Part shown: positions 54,235-63,417 of the stretch, in pieces
Layout of the letters: the number at the start of each line of letters is the position of its first letter
How positions within the stretch are numbered: position 1 is the first letter of the stretch
Source: Halorhabdus rudnickae
GTDB taxonomy: Archaea; Halobacteriota; Halobacteria; Halobacteriales; Haloarculaceae
Direction: 5' to 3'
DNA: 64,000 bases
Assembly (NCBI RefSeq): GCF_900880625.1
Contig: NZ_CAAHFB010000001.1
Coordinates: 1,736,001 to 1,800,000, forward strand
Translations under genes and position numbers: made by a program
Notes under the pieces: generated by a model
The model's input: only the letters and a program-made list of their open reading frames with translations
Told to the model about the DNA's origin: nothing
Database searches by the model: none

Positions 54235-54987
54235 CTATCCGGATCGGGGATGTGTCCGATCGGCCGAGAGATAGGCCGTTTCCAGATGGTCGAGGATGCT
54301 GTCGACAATGGTCGGGTCATACGTCCAAGCCCCGTAGAACGATCGCGATTCGCGTTCCTCAGCGAGTATGGCGCTCTTCTGGGAATCCGTCCCGCCGCCG
54401 TCGAAGACGACGAACCAGGTTTCAGCGATCTCTGCGTTGTCGACAGAGTGGACAGTGACACCGTCGAGATCGGGCGGTGGCTGGTCAGGCGTGCCATAGG
54501 TGTGCACGTCAAGGCCACGGGCCGCGATATCAGTGTAGATCGACGCCTCCCCGGCCAGCATCGACAGCTGCTGGAAGCCAGCATGAATGGTCCCCTCACC
54601 GACCCGCCGAGCGCGGTCCTCAATCTCTCGAGACGTGTAGAGCATCTGTTCAGTGTCGTAGGCAGTGAACGTCGTCTCCTTGAGATGACCGAGGATGGGT
54701 TCGTAGTTCATATCCGCGACGCCCGTCGTGTCCTGATCGGTTGCTACCCCATCGAGGAGTTCCCGCAACGTCCAGAGATGGACCATCGAGAGGACTGTGT
54801 CTCGATTGCTGAGGACGGCGAGGTCTTCAGGCCGTCCGGACGCAGTGGTAACAGCGTCGATATGGACGTTTTGGGACTGAAAGTACTCTCTGAGTTCCGC
54901 GACGATTTGCTCGTCGGAACTGCAATTGAATACGATGAGTTCTTTCTCGTGGTCATTGATCGCTTCGAGAATCTGTGTGAGTGTCAT
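54235..54987 (-). CDS. DICT-domain sensory protein
   Basis: 250 aa, no membrane segment. The pattern LEAINDHEKELIVFNCSSDE ... QFSMLAGEASIYTDIAARGL-like (here QQLSMLAGEASIYTDIAARG), TVHSVDNAEIAETWFVVFDG and the ending FYGAWTYDPTIVDSILDHLE is that of the DICT domain, thought to sense light or small molecules in archaea and cyanobacteria. No effector domain is fused. Lies next to the broken signalling gene, which may have been its partner. Confidence 0.8.
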   Translation of the reverse strand: MTLTQILEAINDHEKELIVFNCSSDEQIVAELREYFQSQNVHIDAVTTASGRPEDLAVLSNRDTVLSMVHLWTLRELLDGVATDQDTTGVADMNYEPILGHLKETTFTAYDTEQMLYTSREIEDRARRVGEGTIHAGFQQLSMLAGEASIYTDIAARGLDVHTYGTPDQPPPDLDGVTVHSVDNAEIAETWFVVFDGGGTDSQKSAILAEERESRSFYGAWTYDPTIVDSILDHLETAYLSADRTHPRSG

Positions 54988-55040: not shown

Positions 55041-55729
55041 GGTGTTCAGATACAGATTGAAGAGTGAGACGTGCTATTTCTCAAAGAGATATTTGCCCAA
55101 AAACGTACGCCTCAGCCATAGTATCGACCAGGTTGACGTAGATTTGTGGAGCGAGAAGCGACACCGCGATTTCTGGTGTAGCTCAGTATTCAGTTGCATC
55201 TTGCTGGATTAGAGCTTTCAAATACGATGCCTATTCTTGAGGCATTCGGTGTCGAACGTGCGCGGTCGACTGTTCATAATCGGGTCCACAAAGCAGATCT
55301 ACAGTCCGGGGATGGACAGAACCCAGATCACGTTGCGGTTGACGAAACCGTGACCGATCGGCAGTGAGCAGTATTGGCTGTACGCCGCCATCGATCCAGA
55401 AACAAACGAATTGCTTTATACAACGGTGAACCGGCCCGAAATTCGGCTCTTGCACACGCGTTCTTTCACGAGCTGCGTGAGACACACGATGTTGACGACG
55501 CAATGGTTCACATCGACGGATCGCACTCGTTGAAAGACACCTGTAACACTCAAGGCCCCGATTTCAGATGTGAACGCGGCGGAAATCGAAACGGATTCAA
55601 ACACGTATTTCGTGAGAGAAAGAATAGAAGCCCTTCGTTCTCAAACTGTGTTAGCTACGTCAGTCCAGAAACAGCAGGCGATTGACTCAGATCCTTTCGC
55701 ACTCGCATAGAACCAGGTATCTAAACACC
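55041..55729 (+). mobile_element. Decayed IS6-family insertion sequence, 689 bp
   Basis: Terminal inverted repeats GGTGTTCAGATAC (55041-55053) and GTATCTAAACACC (55717-55729) match at 12 of 13 positions. Inside, transposase fragments in changing frames: QLHLAGLELSNT-MPILEAF (about 55190-55240), HVAVDETV with the first catalytic Asp (about 55330), QYWLYAAIDPETNELLYTTV (about 55371-55430), ARNSALAHAFFHELRETHDV (about 55437-55500) and the end SFSNC ... ETAGD. At least two frameshifts and several stops. The size suits small IS6-type haloarchaeal elements. No target duplication sought beyond the ends. Confidence 0.75.
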
Positions 55730-55746
55730 ATCTCGAAATAAAACCA

Positions 55747-55757
55747 AATAATATATA
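55747..55757 (+). promoter_or_regulatory. TATA box of the island-3 operon
   Basis: The run AATAATATATA lies 27-37 bp before the ATG at 55784, the spacing expected of a leaderless haloarchaeal promoter. It decides the start of the following gene: an ATG at 55757 falls inside the TATA box itself. Confidence 0.6.
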
Positions 55758-55783
55758 TGAATTGGACTGATTGGCCGACATGT

Positions 55784-56959
55784 ATGGCAAAAAATAGAGA
55801 TTATGGAAGCAGTATTGGTAGAAGAACATTGCTAAAAAACATGGGCATCAGTGGGTTATTGGGATTAACTGGGGTTAGTATCAGCCGCCCTGCAGTAGGG
55901 TCGACACAATCACAAATTGGTGACGGTGTTACGGATCGTTCGCTACTTGCAGGAATAAACGATCCAAAATGGACTGAAAATGAAAAGGTGGAACAAAACG
56001 TAGGTAATAATACCAGTGTAACAGTGGGGTACATGGGTAGCGAATTAGATACGGTGTACGATGATGATAATAACGAGTGGGTGGAATATTGGAAACATCG
56101 GTTTGATCTTTCGAACATCGGTCACTCGGCCCCCTTAGGTAGCGACAAAACCTATAACATAGGTGAACAATGGTTCAAGTGTGGGCCTGCCTATCCGGAC
56201 TATGATCCAGAAGATCCGATCAAGTTTTATGATGTTCCGGTGGCTGGTGCCTGTGCGTGGCCAAATCCTCCAGGTGGTAACTGGAGTGAAGTCATTAAAG
56301 AAATAGTAGAAAAAGCAGCTACAGAAGCAAATCAGATTGTTAATCTGGCCCACACAGCAAGCACAATCTATAACGCATATCAAGAAAAATCCTTCAATTC
56401 TGAAGGCCCGGATTCAATCAAGTTGAAGAAAGACTATAACGCTGTGAAGAGAAACGAATCATCACACAGTGTTCATTTCTCGATACACACGGTTCCTGGT
56501 GGGTATAATACTGCCAAGATTGAGAGTGGTATTTCATATGGAGGGGGCTCAGATGAAGCTAGTGTAGAATTCAAAGTTGATATTACTGATGATACCGTCA
56601 CACCTCTCACGAAATCAGAAGGTTCGTCAACCAACATACAATCTAGTTTGCGCTCCCGATTTGATCAAATGAGCCAAGATGAATTGGACGAAATTGGTGT
56701 TATGAGAGTATACAAATCAGATCTTGAAAAGCTACTAAAGAAACTCAAAAAGGAGCGTCGGCGTAACAAACAACACCCAAGTAAGATTCAGGAAGATGCT
56801 GAGAAAATTGATAGAGAGATATACTCTGTGAAGCAAGCGAAACAAAGACTTGATTTCGAACCCGACGGACATACATATATAAAGACACAGTCGATGAATG
56901 TAGATATAAAGAAGGAAAAATCTGATTCAGACATCGCAAGAACACAATCCACAAGATGA
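55784..56959 (+). CDS. Large Tat-exported protein (unknown function)
   Basis: 391 aa. Twin-arginine signal SSIGRRTLLKNMGISGLLGL (about residues 8-27), cleavage expected after the VGS near 40. The mature part has a Trp/Tyr-rich domain (NNEWVEYWKHRFDLSN, EQWFKCGPAYPDYDPEDP, with Cys residues), a helical middle (WSEVIKEIVEKAATEANQIV), a beta-rich segment (HSVHFSIHTVPGGYNTAKIE) and a basic coiled-coil tail (LEKLLKKLKKERRRNKQ). AT-rich, basic C-terminus, unlike neighbours. A Tat signal, 360-390 aa length and this domain order recall halocin H4-type precursors, but I cannot show homology. It overlaps the next gene by 4 bp. Confidence 0.7.
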   Translation: MAKNRDYGSSIGRRTLLKNMGISGLLGLTGVSISRPAVGSTQSQIGDGVTDRSLLAGINDPKWTENEKVEQNVGNNTSVTVGYMGSELDTVYDDDNNEWVEYWKHRFDLSNIGHSAPLGSDKTYNIGEQWFKCGPAYPDYDPEDPIKFYDVPVAGACAWPNPPGGNWSEVIKEIVEKAATEANQIVNLAHTASTIYNAYQEKSFNSEGPDSIKLKKDYNAVKRNESSHSVHFSIHTVPGGYNTAKIESGISYGGGSDEASVEFKVDITDDTVTPLTKSEGSSTNIQSSLRSRFDQMSQDELDEIGVMRVYKSDLEKLLKKLKKERRRNKQHPSKIQEDAEKIDREIYSVKQAKQRLDFEPDGHTYIKTQSMNVDIKKEKSDSDIARTQSTR

Positions 56960-57453
56960 ATCGCCGTTCGGTTATCGCATCGCTCGGAGGAGCAATCACG
57001 ATCGGTACTTCTGGATGTGTGCATCTGAACTTCCTACAGAACACCCATAGACTCTGGTTCGTTCGCCTCAATCGCGCATGGGAAGGAACGGTTGAAGTCG
57101 ATGCACGAATCAAGCGCAACGGGACCGTCGTCCACGAGTCTAGCTACGAAGTTCCTGGTATCGAGGAAAGCGACAAGGGAGACGAAGAACCCATGGAATG
57201 GGCTGGTACGAGCCGGAAATTAATTCAATCGAAATGGGATACCGCTCCTGCTGTGTTTACCGTCGAAAGTAAACTGTCCGACAACGATGATTGGGTTACA
57301 GACTCGTTCTCTAACGTCGAGTCGACACATATTGGAGCGACAGTGGACATTGTCGGTCCTGGCGTAGCGGGCATCAAACCACACGAATTCGACTCTGAAA
57401 CAGAAGTACAGCAGTTCCTCGATCAAGTAACACCACCCAATGTAGAGCATTGA
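56956..57453 (+). CDS. Tat lipoprotein, partner of the large Tat protein
   Basis: 165 aa. Signal NRRSVIASLGGAITIGTSGC with a lipobox Cys at residue 20, so an anchored extracellular lipoprotein. The mature domain has alternating strands (HRLWFVRLNRAWEGTVEVDA, VFTVESKLSDNDDWVTDSF), an immunoglobulin-like pattern seen in many haloarchaeal lipoproteins. It overlaps the preceding stop by 4 bp, so the pair is translated together; a surface binding, inhibitor or immunity partner is plausible. Confidence 0.7.
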   Translation: MNRRSVIASLGGAITIGTSGCVHLNFLQNTHRLWFVRLNRAWEGTVEVDARIKRNGTVVHESSYEVPGIEESDKGDEEPMEWAGTSRKLIQSKWDTAPAVFTVESKLSDNDDWVTDSFSNVESTHIGATVDIVGPGVAGIKPHEFDSETEVQQFLDQVTPPNVEH

Positions 57454-57630
57454 CGGAAAGCCCCTGGACATTATCGCCATATGGAATATGGGTGCAAACG
57501 CTAAGCAAATATAAGATATAAGTTTTGAGTTAACCGAGCTAGATGATTCTGGACTCGGCATGCTTGATTCGCTGAGGAGAAAGCGTGTATCTACACTATA
57601 AGAATCAGGGGGGTTCGGGTATTTCCGAGA

Positions 57631-57827
57631 GGATCTTGCAACCAACATGGCCTCGATTTCAGAGACGAACGTCGTCGAAATCGAAACAGCCCCGAACATC
57701 CACTTCGTGGGGTAAAACACAGAACCGCTTCATTCTCACACGGTTTCAGCCAGGCCGCTGCAGAAACAGCAGACGAGTCGGTCAGGTCCGTCGCATTCGC
57801 ATGGAACCAGCGTATCTGAACACTACC
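57631..57827 (+). mobile_element. 3' remnant of a second IS6-family copy
   Basis: One open frame reads GSCNQHGLDFRDERRRNRNS, VKHRTASFSHGFSQAAAETA, DESVRSVAFAWNQRI and a TGA, the C-terminal end of the same transposase type as at 55041. It ends in GTATCTGAACACTACC (57812-57827), which matches the inverted repeat of the first copy. The left two thirds are missing. Same orientation as copy 1, so the two bracket the Tat gene pair as direct repeats. Confidence 0.7.
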
Positions 57828-57875
57828 TGCCCAGGAGAGGTGCCTTCAAGACCCTGCTGGCGCAATCGGTATACC

Positions 57876-58841
57876 ATGAGTCGGGTGTCAATCGGGGCTC
57901 GACTGCACGCGGGCTTTCAGAACCTCTCGCTGGCGCGCGATCGCCTCTATGGCGGCATCGGCTGGGCCATCGACGAGCCACAGCTGGTAGTGAACGCGGA
58001 TCGAGCCGACAGTCTCGTCTGTCCGGACGACGCAGTCGAGCCGTATGCCCGCCGAGCGATCGACGCACTAAGCGTCCCCGGGGCCGAGATCAGTGTCGAG
58101 CGCCGCTACGACCGCCACGCCGGGCTGGGCAGCGGAACCCGCCTCGCAGTGGCCGCATTGGTGGGAGTTGCCGACGCCTACGATCTCGATGTCGCGGTGC
58201 GCGAACGGGCTCCCGACCTCGGCCGGGGCGGACGAAGCGGCGTCGGGATCGCCACCTTTCTCGAGGGGGGATTCGTCGTCGACGGCGGTCACCCGACCGA
58301 ACGGTTCACCCACAGCCCCCCGGAGACCGGCACTTGGACCACGCCGCCGGTCGTCGCCCGCCACCCGATCCCCGAGTCCTGGCAGTTCGTCCTGGTCACG
58401 CCGACGATCGACGCCGGCCAGCACGGGAGCAACGAGGACGCGAGCATGCGCTCGATCGTCGAGCAGGCCGACCCGGGGATCGCCGACGAGATCGCCCCGC
58501 TGGTGACCCAGCGACTCCTGCCCGCGATCGCCGAGGGGGATCGCCGGACCTTCGGTGCGGCGATCACCCGGCTCGGTCGGCTCAATGGCGCCTGGTACGC
58601 GGACGAACAGGGCGGTGTCTATCGCCCGCCGGCCGGCCGGCTCGTCGAGGCACTCTCAGCCGTCGACGGCGTCGACGGCGTCGGCCAGTCATCGTGGGGG
58701 CCAACGGTCTATGCGATCACCGGGGTCGAGTGGGTCGATCGCGTTCGGGAGACGGCCCAGGAGGCCCTCGAAACAGTCGGTGTCGAAGGCGACATCCGTG
58801 CGGTCGGGCCGGACAATCGCGGGTTTACTCTCGAAGCGTGA
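57876..58841 (+). CDS. GHMP-family protein, beta-RFAP synthase-like
   Basis: 321 aa from MSRVSIGARLHAGFQNLSLA; the frame is open upstream only through the transposon remnant. Similar to beta-ribofuranosylaminobenzene 5'-phosphate synthases: the GHMP motif is HAGLGSGTRLAVAALVGVAD (about residues 83-102), with GRGGRSGVGIATFLEGGFVV (about 115) and VTPTIDAGQHGSNED. In methanogens this enzyme starts the tetrahydromethanopterin pathway; haloarchaea keep homologues whose role is less certain. Confidence 0.85.
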   Translation: MSRVSIGARLHAGFQNLSLARDRLYGGIGWAIDEPQLVVNADRADSLVCPDDAVEPYARRAIDALSVPGAEISVERRYDRHAGLGSGTRLAVAALVGVADAYDLDVAVRERAPDLGRGGRSGVGIATFLEGGFVVDGGHPTERFTHSPPETGTWTTPPVVARHPIPESWQFVLVTPTIDAGQHGSNEDASMRSIVEQADPGIADEIAPLVTQRLLPAIAEGDRRTFGAAITRLGRLNGAWYADEQGGVYRPPAGRLVEALSAVDGVDGVGQSSWGPTVYAITGVEWVDRVRETAQEALETVGVEGDIRAVGPDNRGFTLEA

Positions 58842-61534: not shown

Positions 61535-63417
61535 ATGAGTCGAATTAGGAGAGAACTATTGTCGGATTCGGCAGTATCTGTGTCTTAATCGTCCTGATCG
61601 CCACACTCTCCGCGGGAGCGGGAGCTGTGCCGGCACCGGACAGCACGCACAACAAAACACAACCAGACGGGACAGGGTTCGAAGCACGCCAGTGGGGAGA
61701 CGCGTTTAATCACGGTTGGGAAACGACTCGTGGGTATACTATTGTACAAGGCGATAACGGGTACTGGCGGTACGCAGACAAGGGCCAAAGTGGATCACTT
61801 GCGCCATCCCACGCCCGCGTCGGTATCGACGCCCCTCCAGCGACGGTCCAAAAACACCTCCGTCCTAGCTCATCGAAAGAGCAAACAAGTGGTTCGTCTA
61901 CTGGGACAACTTCCGAAGGGCCGACACTCAGCCCGGAACGAGCGGCCCCAGCCACCGGGACCGTCTCGTTTCCTGTTGTGATGGTGGATTTTACCGATAC
62001 GAGCCCGACGTATTCGCAAACGAACTTTCAAAACTTGCTGTTCGGGACCGATCCGTCGATCGCGTCCGGGCCGGGGAGCCTTTCGGACTACTATTCGGAA
62101 GTCTCTTACGGCCAGTTATCGGTCACAGGGAACGTCGTTGGCTGGGTGACGGCCGACAAAACCCACGATTATTACGGTAGGAATTCGGGCAGAATGGACG
62201 CGAACGTAAGCGAATTGATCAGAGAATCAGCACAGAAAGTCGATTCTCAGGTTGATTTCAGCCAATATGATAACGACGGTGACGACGTCGTCGATCAGTT
62301 CGTGGTCATCCATCAGGGTGCCGGCGAAGAATTTTCGGGCCAATCAACGGATATCTGGTCCCATCACTACTCGATCGATTATCAGACAAACGACGGTGTA
62401 ACGATCCAGTCGTACACGATACAGCCCGAAACCCAAAACGGGCAGATCTCGACCACCGGGGTATTCGCCCACGAGATGGGTCACGCGTTCGGTCTCCCGG
62501 ACCTCTACGATACCGATTATAGTTCCGCTGGAATCGGGGATTGGGGACTGATGAGTAGTGGAAGCTGGAACGGGGTAAATCGCGCGGGTGACTCTCCGGC
62601 ACATCTATCAGCCTGGAGCAAGCAGTATCTCAGCTGGATCTCACCGACGACACTGCAGAACGGCGAGTCCTTAGCAGACAAGCAGATCGATCCAGCAACG
62701 ACCACGACGGACTTCTATCAGCTCCGCCAACCGACGAGCCAGCAGCGTGAATACTTCCTGGTCGGAAACCGCCAACGAACAGGGTTCGACAAAGGACTTC
62801 CCGGAAGTGGCGTTGCGATTTGGCACATCGACCGCTCGAATATCGACAACAACTGCCTCTACTATAACGACTGTAACGACGATGAAAACGACAAGCTCGT
62901 CGATCTCGAAGCTGGCGATGGAGCAGCAGACTTAGACAACGACACGAACACCGGAAATGCCGCAGATCTCTGGCCGTCCGGGACCTTCGATGGCTCGTCA
63001 ACGCCCAGTTCTGACTTCGATAACGGGACTGCAAGCGACGTGTTCGTCGCAAATATTGGCTCGAGTGGCGGAGCGTCCTATACAGCGGATTTCGGGGTCG
63101 GATCGCAGACAACACATGCGTCAGTTGCAACAGGATCAGCGTCAAACGTCGACAGTTCCTCGGCGAGGTTAAGTGGCGATCTCACGGATCTGGGAAGTGC
63201 CGCCTCTGTGGACGTCTATCTCACCTACTGGATCGAAGGGCAGAAAAGCTCGACCCAGCAGTACGCTGATGGCGGAACACGCACTTCGACTGGCTCGTTC
63301 AGTGCAGATGCGAGTAGTCTACAGAGTGGAACGCCCTACGTGTTCAAAGCGATCGGCCAGGAAGATGACGGCGACTGGGTGCCGACCGGCCAAGAACAAA
63401 CCTTCCAGACATCGTAA
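61535..63417 (+). CDS. Secreted M6-family metalloprotease (signal peptide frameshifted)
   Basis: The main frame from GTG 61627 encodes 596 aa. Zinc site HEMGHAFGLPD (about residue 283), preceded by FPVVMVDFTDTSPTYSQTNF and followed by a Met-turn region (GDWGLMSSGSWNG); a C-terminal fibronectin-III-like domain (about 495-596, ASVATGSASNVDSSSARLSG). In the same frame just upstream of the GTG runs a hydrophobic stretch (TIVGFGSICVLIVLIATLSA-GAGA) ideal for a signal peptide, but it has no start and is cut by a TAG at 61546-61548. The ATG at 61535 (MSRIRREL) is one frame off. A single indel near 61556-61565 would join them, so the gene is either freshly broken or misread. Confidence 0.75.

Follow-up and report, generated by a model that had tools for sequence, protein, structure and literature searches.

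A Tat-Type Protein Related to Halocin H4 and Its Candidate Immunity Lipoprotein in an IS6-Flanked Island of Halorhabdus rudnickae

Two overlapping genes in a low-GC island

A 64,000-nucleotide stretch of the Halorhabdus rudnickae genome (NZ_CAAHFB010000001.1, positions 1,736,001 to 1,800,000), referred to here as the window, was analysed around a low-GC island that holds two genes, A and B (Table 1). Gene A encodes a protein with a twin-arginine translocation (Tat) motif that is related, through intermediate sequences, to halocin H4 (HalH4, HFX_5264) of Haloferax mediterranei, while gene B encodes a Tat lipoprotein that probably acts as its immunity protein. Both open reading frames (ORFs) and the 4-bp overlap between them, as described in an earlier note on this DNA, were confirmed, and so was the AT-rich island, the GC content falling from ∼0.62 in the surroundings to 0.40 to 0.48 over most of the A-B pair.

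The mechanical ORF of A begins upstream, at 55757, and comprises 400 aa; the ATG at 55784 was taken as the start. The position of a TATA-like box fits a leaderless mRNA starting at this ATG. AT-rich boxes also lie upstream of most of the other A genes compared, not clearly so for L076 or L084 (L and G numbers are our labels for loci and genomes). The Tat-signal models of Pfam and NCBIfam did not match A from the window at an E value of ≤1, and its assignment to the Tat pathway is therefore based on the motif; the relative in L084 passes the Tat model TIGR01409 (17.8 versus 16.7 bits). Mature A contains two cysteines, C133 and C156. In gene B, R3, R4, G20, and C21 are invariant across 13 aligned B-type partners.

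Comparison of the window with L002, the nearest related pair (genome G198, of the same genus), gave dN/dS values of 0.28 (A) and 0.24 (B), which argues that both are more than chance open frames. Across related pairs, three for each gene, the values ranged from 0.16 to 0.30, denoting purifying selection. A reading of the two genes as decayed cargo of an IS6 transposition that no longer has a function would agree with the broken state of both flanking IS remnants, but is very improbable given the intact frames, these dN/dS values, and the conservation of the A-B pair down to ∼25% identity.

Relationship of A to halocin H4

The 359-aa HalH4 sequence used in all comparisons was a presumed one, set down independently of the record of halH4, a gene reportedly described in 1997 by Cheung et al. 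It contains the hexapeptides encoded by all three of the primers tested from Table 2 of PMC6759562.

No direct pairwise match was found between A from the window and HalH4. Three of its relatives matched mature HalH4 as single sequences (L048 and L074, E value of 9e-7 each; L078, 1.5e-6), and a 16-member family profile did so at 9.5e-17. The match persisted with the family profile lacking L048 and L074 (1.2e-12), with another, 13-member profile (3.2e-10), and with a 10-member profile devoid of all three single matchers (2.2e-4). Comparison of the profile of the A branch with that of the distant branch rendered a probability of 99 and a score of 128 when HalH4 was left out and 124 when it was included, the match being collinear over ∼250 columns; these scores are inflated because the distant members were chosen by means of a profile containing L048; neither HalH4 nor the partner gene played any role in that choice. 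Control scores were ≤25.8 for reversed profiles, 16.8 for the best of 30 column shuffles, and 17.6 for the best of 25 unrelated Tat-protein groups. In the opposite direction, the HalH4-side profile retrieved A from the window at an E value of 1.1e-9 among 195 sequences, ranking six of the seven A-branch members above all decoys and the seventh (L003) below one decoy; the same inflation applies to these figures.

These data support a strong kinship, indirect and by way of bridging relatives, between A and HalH4, and the earlier proposal of a halocin H4-type precursor is borne out to that extent. Both proteins appear to be Tat-type precursors of similar length (391 aa in A and 359 aa in HalH4), with a helix pair in the middle, hydrophobic or amphipathic in character, and a Y-containing strand near the C terminus. 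The helix pair of A, modeled with low confidence, stands where HalH4 has its hydrophobic central segment. A differs in its basic helical C-terminal extension, as well as in the missing pairwise match.

Distribution of A-type genes

A single-sequence search with A found it in 3 of 293 genomes. Profile searches recovered a family member in 16 of 392 Halobacteriales genomes, excluding matches to the Tat signal only, a figure that is a lower bound since a second copy in the H. rudnickae genome (L148) was missed by the A profiles and reached through B. The first profile search matched 72 of 391 genomes, and the seven loci clearly extending past the Tat signal were kept; the second (E ≤ 1e-4) added only L048; and the third (E ≤ 0.05) yielded 20 places in 19 genomes, from which 16 loci in 16 genomes were retained after discarding L081, L082, and L083 (short matches, E values of 0.012 to 0.017) and the duplicate L085. 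In genus g64, seven weak matches to the first profile (columns 8 to 153; E values of 5e-4 to 6e-3) were absent with the later profiles. Identity of the family members to A from the window ranges from ∼70% down to 17%. Within the genus, A is present in two of seven genomes. The earlier note had named, as the finding that would contradict it, clear homology to a surface protein with a housekeeping role that every relative possesses; this was not observed for A.

The family is covered by no curated family. Pfam, NCBIfam, and PHROGs searches with A and B, and a PDB sequence search with A, gave nothing above chance, and the relatives of A rendered just Tat signals and matches below cut-off in Pfam and NCBIfam, with the exception of a neighbor in L148 that matched the halocin C8 model (see below). 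No relative of A was found among viral contigs. A tblastn search of plasmids with A retrieved one record, from Natronosalvus caseinilyticus (NZ_CP100395.1), and none of seven other members (L008, L006, L048, L084, L080, L078, and L079) had a match. Genome G090 has two copies, 99.9% identical and ∼28 kb apart, of a region at least 13.3 kb long, each copy carrying an A-B pair (L099 and L100).

Association of A-type genes with a Tat lipoprotein gene

A Tat lipoprotein gene lies directly downstream of A in all of the first seven loci, the window included. Among the 16 A-type loci, 13 have such a gene within 320 bp, compared to none of 38 decoy loci of Tat proteins. The decoys were loci recovered through the Tat signal only, 6 of 44 having been left out because they lacked the focal ORF. 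When the comparison was restricted to the 12 decoys, out of 38, with 850 b of sequence to either side, the pairing gave a Fisher p value of 1.5e-5. Pairing as a mere by-product of the abundance of Tat lipoproteins was considered and rejected, given the lack of paired decoys.

Nine of the 13 partners are located downstream on the same strand, three are convergent (L077, L078, and L084), and one is divergent (L079), so that partner orientation switches between lineages. Partners from different branches are related to one another (hhalign E value of 1.5e-10 and score of 64, versus ≤15.4 for shuffles); that of L079 had no match of its own. A and B distances were correlated, with an r of 0.88 for 14 pairs, mostly driven by close pairs, and an r of 0.30 (p = 0.028) for 11 nonredundant pairs.

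Predicted structures of A and B

A was modeled (pLDDT, 59; pTM, 0.61) as a protein rich in beta strands, in which residues 159 to 207 include a helix pair of uncertain placement and further helices lie at the C terminus. In VIA-align, leukocidin and hemolysin chains led the list, with Z scores from 10.6 to 9.7 over the first 16 rows and a top leukocidin-type match at 10.6 over 162 residues (3.5 Å), followed by the cell wall adhesins ClfA, ClfB, and SdrC (9.0 to 9.6). Foldseek gave query-length TM scores of ≤0.25 among the 50 rows listed. A sequence profile search of PDB returned eight sequences at an E value of ≤10, with no leukocidin among them, the distance being too great for this to decide, and nothing convincing was found in a viral fold library. 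The model, of low confidence and with adhesins close behind, hints at a leukocidin-like fold for A, which would depart from leukocidin and alpha-hemolysin in having a helix pair in the place of the stem, with no sequence match to either. For B, the predicted fold (pLDDT, 76.5) is a beta-sandwich plus one C-terminal helix, for which a transthyretin-like protein was the best match (Z score of 6.9); there was no Foldseek match at an E value of ≤0.001 and no clear relative in the fold search.

Searches starting from gene B

A profile of B matched many Tat lipoproteins in the seven genomes of the genus. All seven had a match at an E value of ≤0.01, many over the signal only (best matches, 4.8e-4 in G195 and 2.2e-3 in G271), and B thus comes loosely close to the surface protein present in all relatives that was mentioned above for A. 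The surroundings of 12 B-type places, mostly the stronger matches, were examined. One of them, in the same genome as the window (G000:C1:1593772; L148), revealed a second A-B pair, in which a convergent gene for a 345-aa Tat protein (L148:4204-5241) lies beside the B-type gene. This protein matched the family at an E value of 2.8e-10, and a profile built without L148 and HalH4 at 1.4e-8. At ∼2.6 kb from this pair, near an IS6 fragment, a gene on the minus strand (L148:1194-1646; C1 ∼1591193-1591645) passes the halocin C8 model TIGR04449 (24.6 bits versus a cut-off of 24).

Halocin C8 is a Tat-exported haloarchaeal antagonist, as is proposed for A; in that system, toxin and immunity protein derive from one gene (PMC11509114 and PMC3831642), whereas A and B are separate genes. 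Neither A nor B matched any NCBIfam model, TIGR04449 included, at an E value of ≤1.

The proximity of the C8-like gene bears on a further explanation, in which A would be a secreted factor for the cell surface or for envelope remodeling, serving adhesion or DNA uptake, while B would anchor it to the membrane and any killing would be incidental. It would accord with the effects of HalH4 deletion, after which DNA uptake was blocked and the cell surface became smoother (PMC6759562); the adhesins found close after the leukocidins point the same way (Z scores of 9.0 to 9.6 versus 10.6). The patchy presence in the genus, the IS-flanked island, and the C8-like gene near the second pair argue against it, and we regard it as quite unlikely.

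B homologues 54 to 56% identical to B from the window were found in two genomes, G143 and G075, that lack A according to the single-sequence search and the profile search (E ≤ 0.05). In G143 they form a tandem triplet with ATGA overlaps, and in G075 there is a single copy. One reading is that these are solitary immunity genes in competitors; the other is that they reflect a general surface-protein role of the wider family. They also bear on the idea that A is antagonistic and that B, rather than conferring immunity, is held at the producer surface to assist A, either as a second active component or in its folding or delivery. The coupling of A and B by the 4-bp overlap in the window and the two-component toxins among the structural look-alikes of A would suit such a role; however, convergent and divergent partners call for separate expression, and a helper would be of little use in the two congeners that have B homologues but no A, so this alternative appears unlikely.

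Proposed function of the A-B pair

Given the kinship with HalH4, the pairing in 13 of 16 loci, the second pair reached from B, the B homologues in genomes without A, and the correlation of A and B distances, A is probably an HalH4-type antagonistic protein exported by the Tat pathway and B its cognate immunity lipoprotein, toxicity and immunity being deduced from sequence. Of the roles put forward for B in the earlier note, immunity factor is the one that best accounts for the pairing, the B-first search, and the homologues without A, and protection by B is what we infer.

As to the mechanism, A would cross the membrane folded via Tat and then shed its signal. An extracellular subtilase may trim it, as reported for HalH4 and HlyR4: cleavage of HalH4 by HlyR4 yields a C-terminal fragment that is active (PMC12893001). 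Two S8 peptidases are encoded in the same genome, one of them with a Tat-type start (L155), a candidate activator of A. For HalH4, perforation of the cell surface has been put forward as a speculation (PMC6759562). A would then use its central and C-terminal regions to damage the envelope of neighboring haloarchaea, while B, exported and lipid anchored at the outer face of the producer membrane, would bind A ahead of its action there.

Several observations, besides the inflated between-branch scores noted above, weigh against this interpretation. The profile of the seven-member branch of A did not by itself match HalH4 (hhalign probability of 0.9). Three of the 16 loci (L075, L076, and L080; L076 judged by eye) have no partner within 400 bp. 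B is part of a broader family of Tat lipoproteins, and 11 of the 12 examined B-type loci have no recognizable A neighbor, so that B-type proteins may serve other functions; in the copies of G143 and G075 the lipobox cysteine is replaced. Finally, deletion of halH4 did not abolish the inhibition of one indicator strain (PMC12893001).

A broader picture, which we consider possible but doubtful, would place HalH4 in a haloarchaeal family, widespread and quick to diverge, whose secreted members would be pore-formers, possibly of a leukocidin-like kind, each paired with a lipid-anchored immunity protein whose gene switches orientation; competitors would carry arrays of immunity genes without the toxin. 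Pore-forming colicins are encoded beside a membrane-located immunity protein, whose gene is often on the opposite strand. The likeness is one of layout; B is a lipoprotein, whereas colicin immunity proteins are integral membrane proteins.

Within the parts of the literature consulted, no immunity factor is named for HalH4, only that of C8 being described, and there is no description of an HalH4 family with lipoprotein partners, the archaeal-toxin survey of Makarova et al. (2019) and Chen et al. (2024) lying outside that scope. No priority is claimed for the family or its partners, since Makarova et al. (2019) may already list them. Should B-type lipoproteins prove to shield cells from HalH4-type proteins, tractable haloarchaea would allow direct tests of self-protection, specificity, and mode of action, and a number of hypothetical proteins so far without a name would be assigned a function; if the family reading holds, it would provide an archaeal counterpart of toxin-immunity arms races.

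The island and its surroundings

The left IS6-type remnant (55042-55728) shows ∼80% identity to the nearest copies in the same genome (L124 to L127) over 692 columns, and the right one 83% to its nearest copy (L132). Nine near-full-length IS6-type copies, some with intact transposase frames, are present in the genome besides the window remnant. The two remnants had been described as parts of one element in a composite-transposon layout. Their common orientation around the cargo agrees with that layout; nonetheless, they are only 73% identical, hence two related elements and not the near-identical copies of an IS6 composite transposon, and no target site duplication was seen by eye at 55041 and 57828, where it may have decayed. 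IS6 elements may have moved or captured the A-B pair into the gap between two divergent genes.

These flanking genes, the right one presumably encoding beta-RFAP synthase, are adjacent in four of six congeners (G271, G143, G119, and G075) and not in G195 and G198. The spacer between them measures 104 bp in G271 and 93 bp in G143, both without the island, and consists of other DNA in G119 (567 bp) and G075 (1588 bp). The 2.9-kb spacer of the window is therefore an insertion at a spot that accepts varied DNA. The spacer of G075 is, by eye, a coding stretch on the opposite strand, and that of G119 is repeat rich (L121 and L122).

TABLE 1 Features of the A-B locus and of related loci (window positions unless a locus is given)
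Feature	Coordinates	Strand	Remarks
Gene A	55784-56959	+	Tat-type halocin H4-related protein, 391 aa; RR at residues 13-14
TATA-like box	55748-55757	+	27-36 nt upstream of ATG 55784
Tat signal region of A	55784-55903	+	RR 13-14, then hydrophobic stretch; end approximate; read from sequence
Central helix pair of A	56282-56383	+	Residues 167-200; low model confidence here
Basic helical C-terminal part of A	56714-56851	+	Residues 311-356; expanded only in the window and L002
ATGA	56956-56959	+	A stop overlapping B start (4 bp)
Gene B	56956-57453	+	Tat lipoprotein, 165 aa; candidate immunity protein
Tat signal and lipobox of B	56956-57018	+	Residues 1-21; TSGC with Cys 21
Low-GC island	55041-57828		Holds genes A and B between two IS6 remnants
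Left IS6-type remnant	55041-55728	+	Full-length element disrupted by stop codons and frameshifts; three frames hold ORF fragments
Outer end of left IS6 remnant	at 55042	+	GTGTTCAGATAC
Right IS6-type remnant	57635-57827	+	3' 190 bp with outer end; orientation as left remnant
Left flanking gene	54235-54987	-	
Right flanking gene	57876-58841	+	
Tandem triplet of B homologues	L143:4120-5626 (G143)	+	ATGA overlaps
Single B homologue	L144:4180-4698 (G075)	-	

Another stretch of lower GC content, at the end of the window, contains a 596-aa open frame (61627-63417, plus strand).
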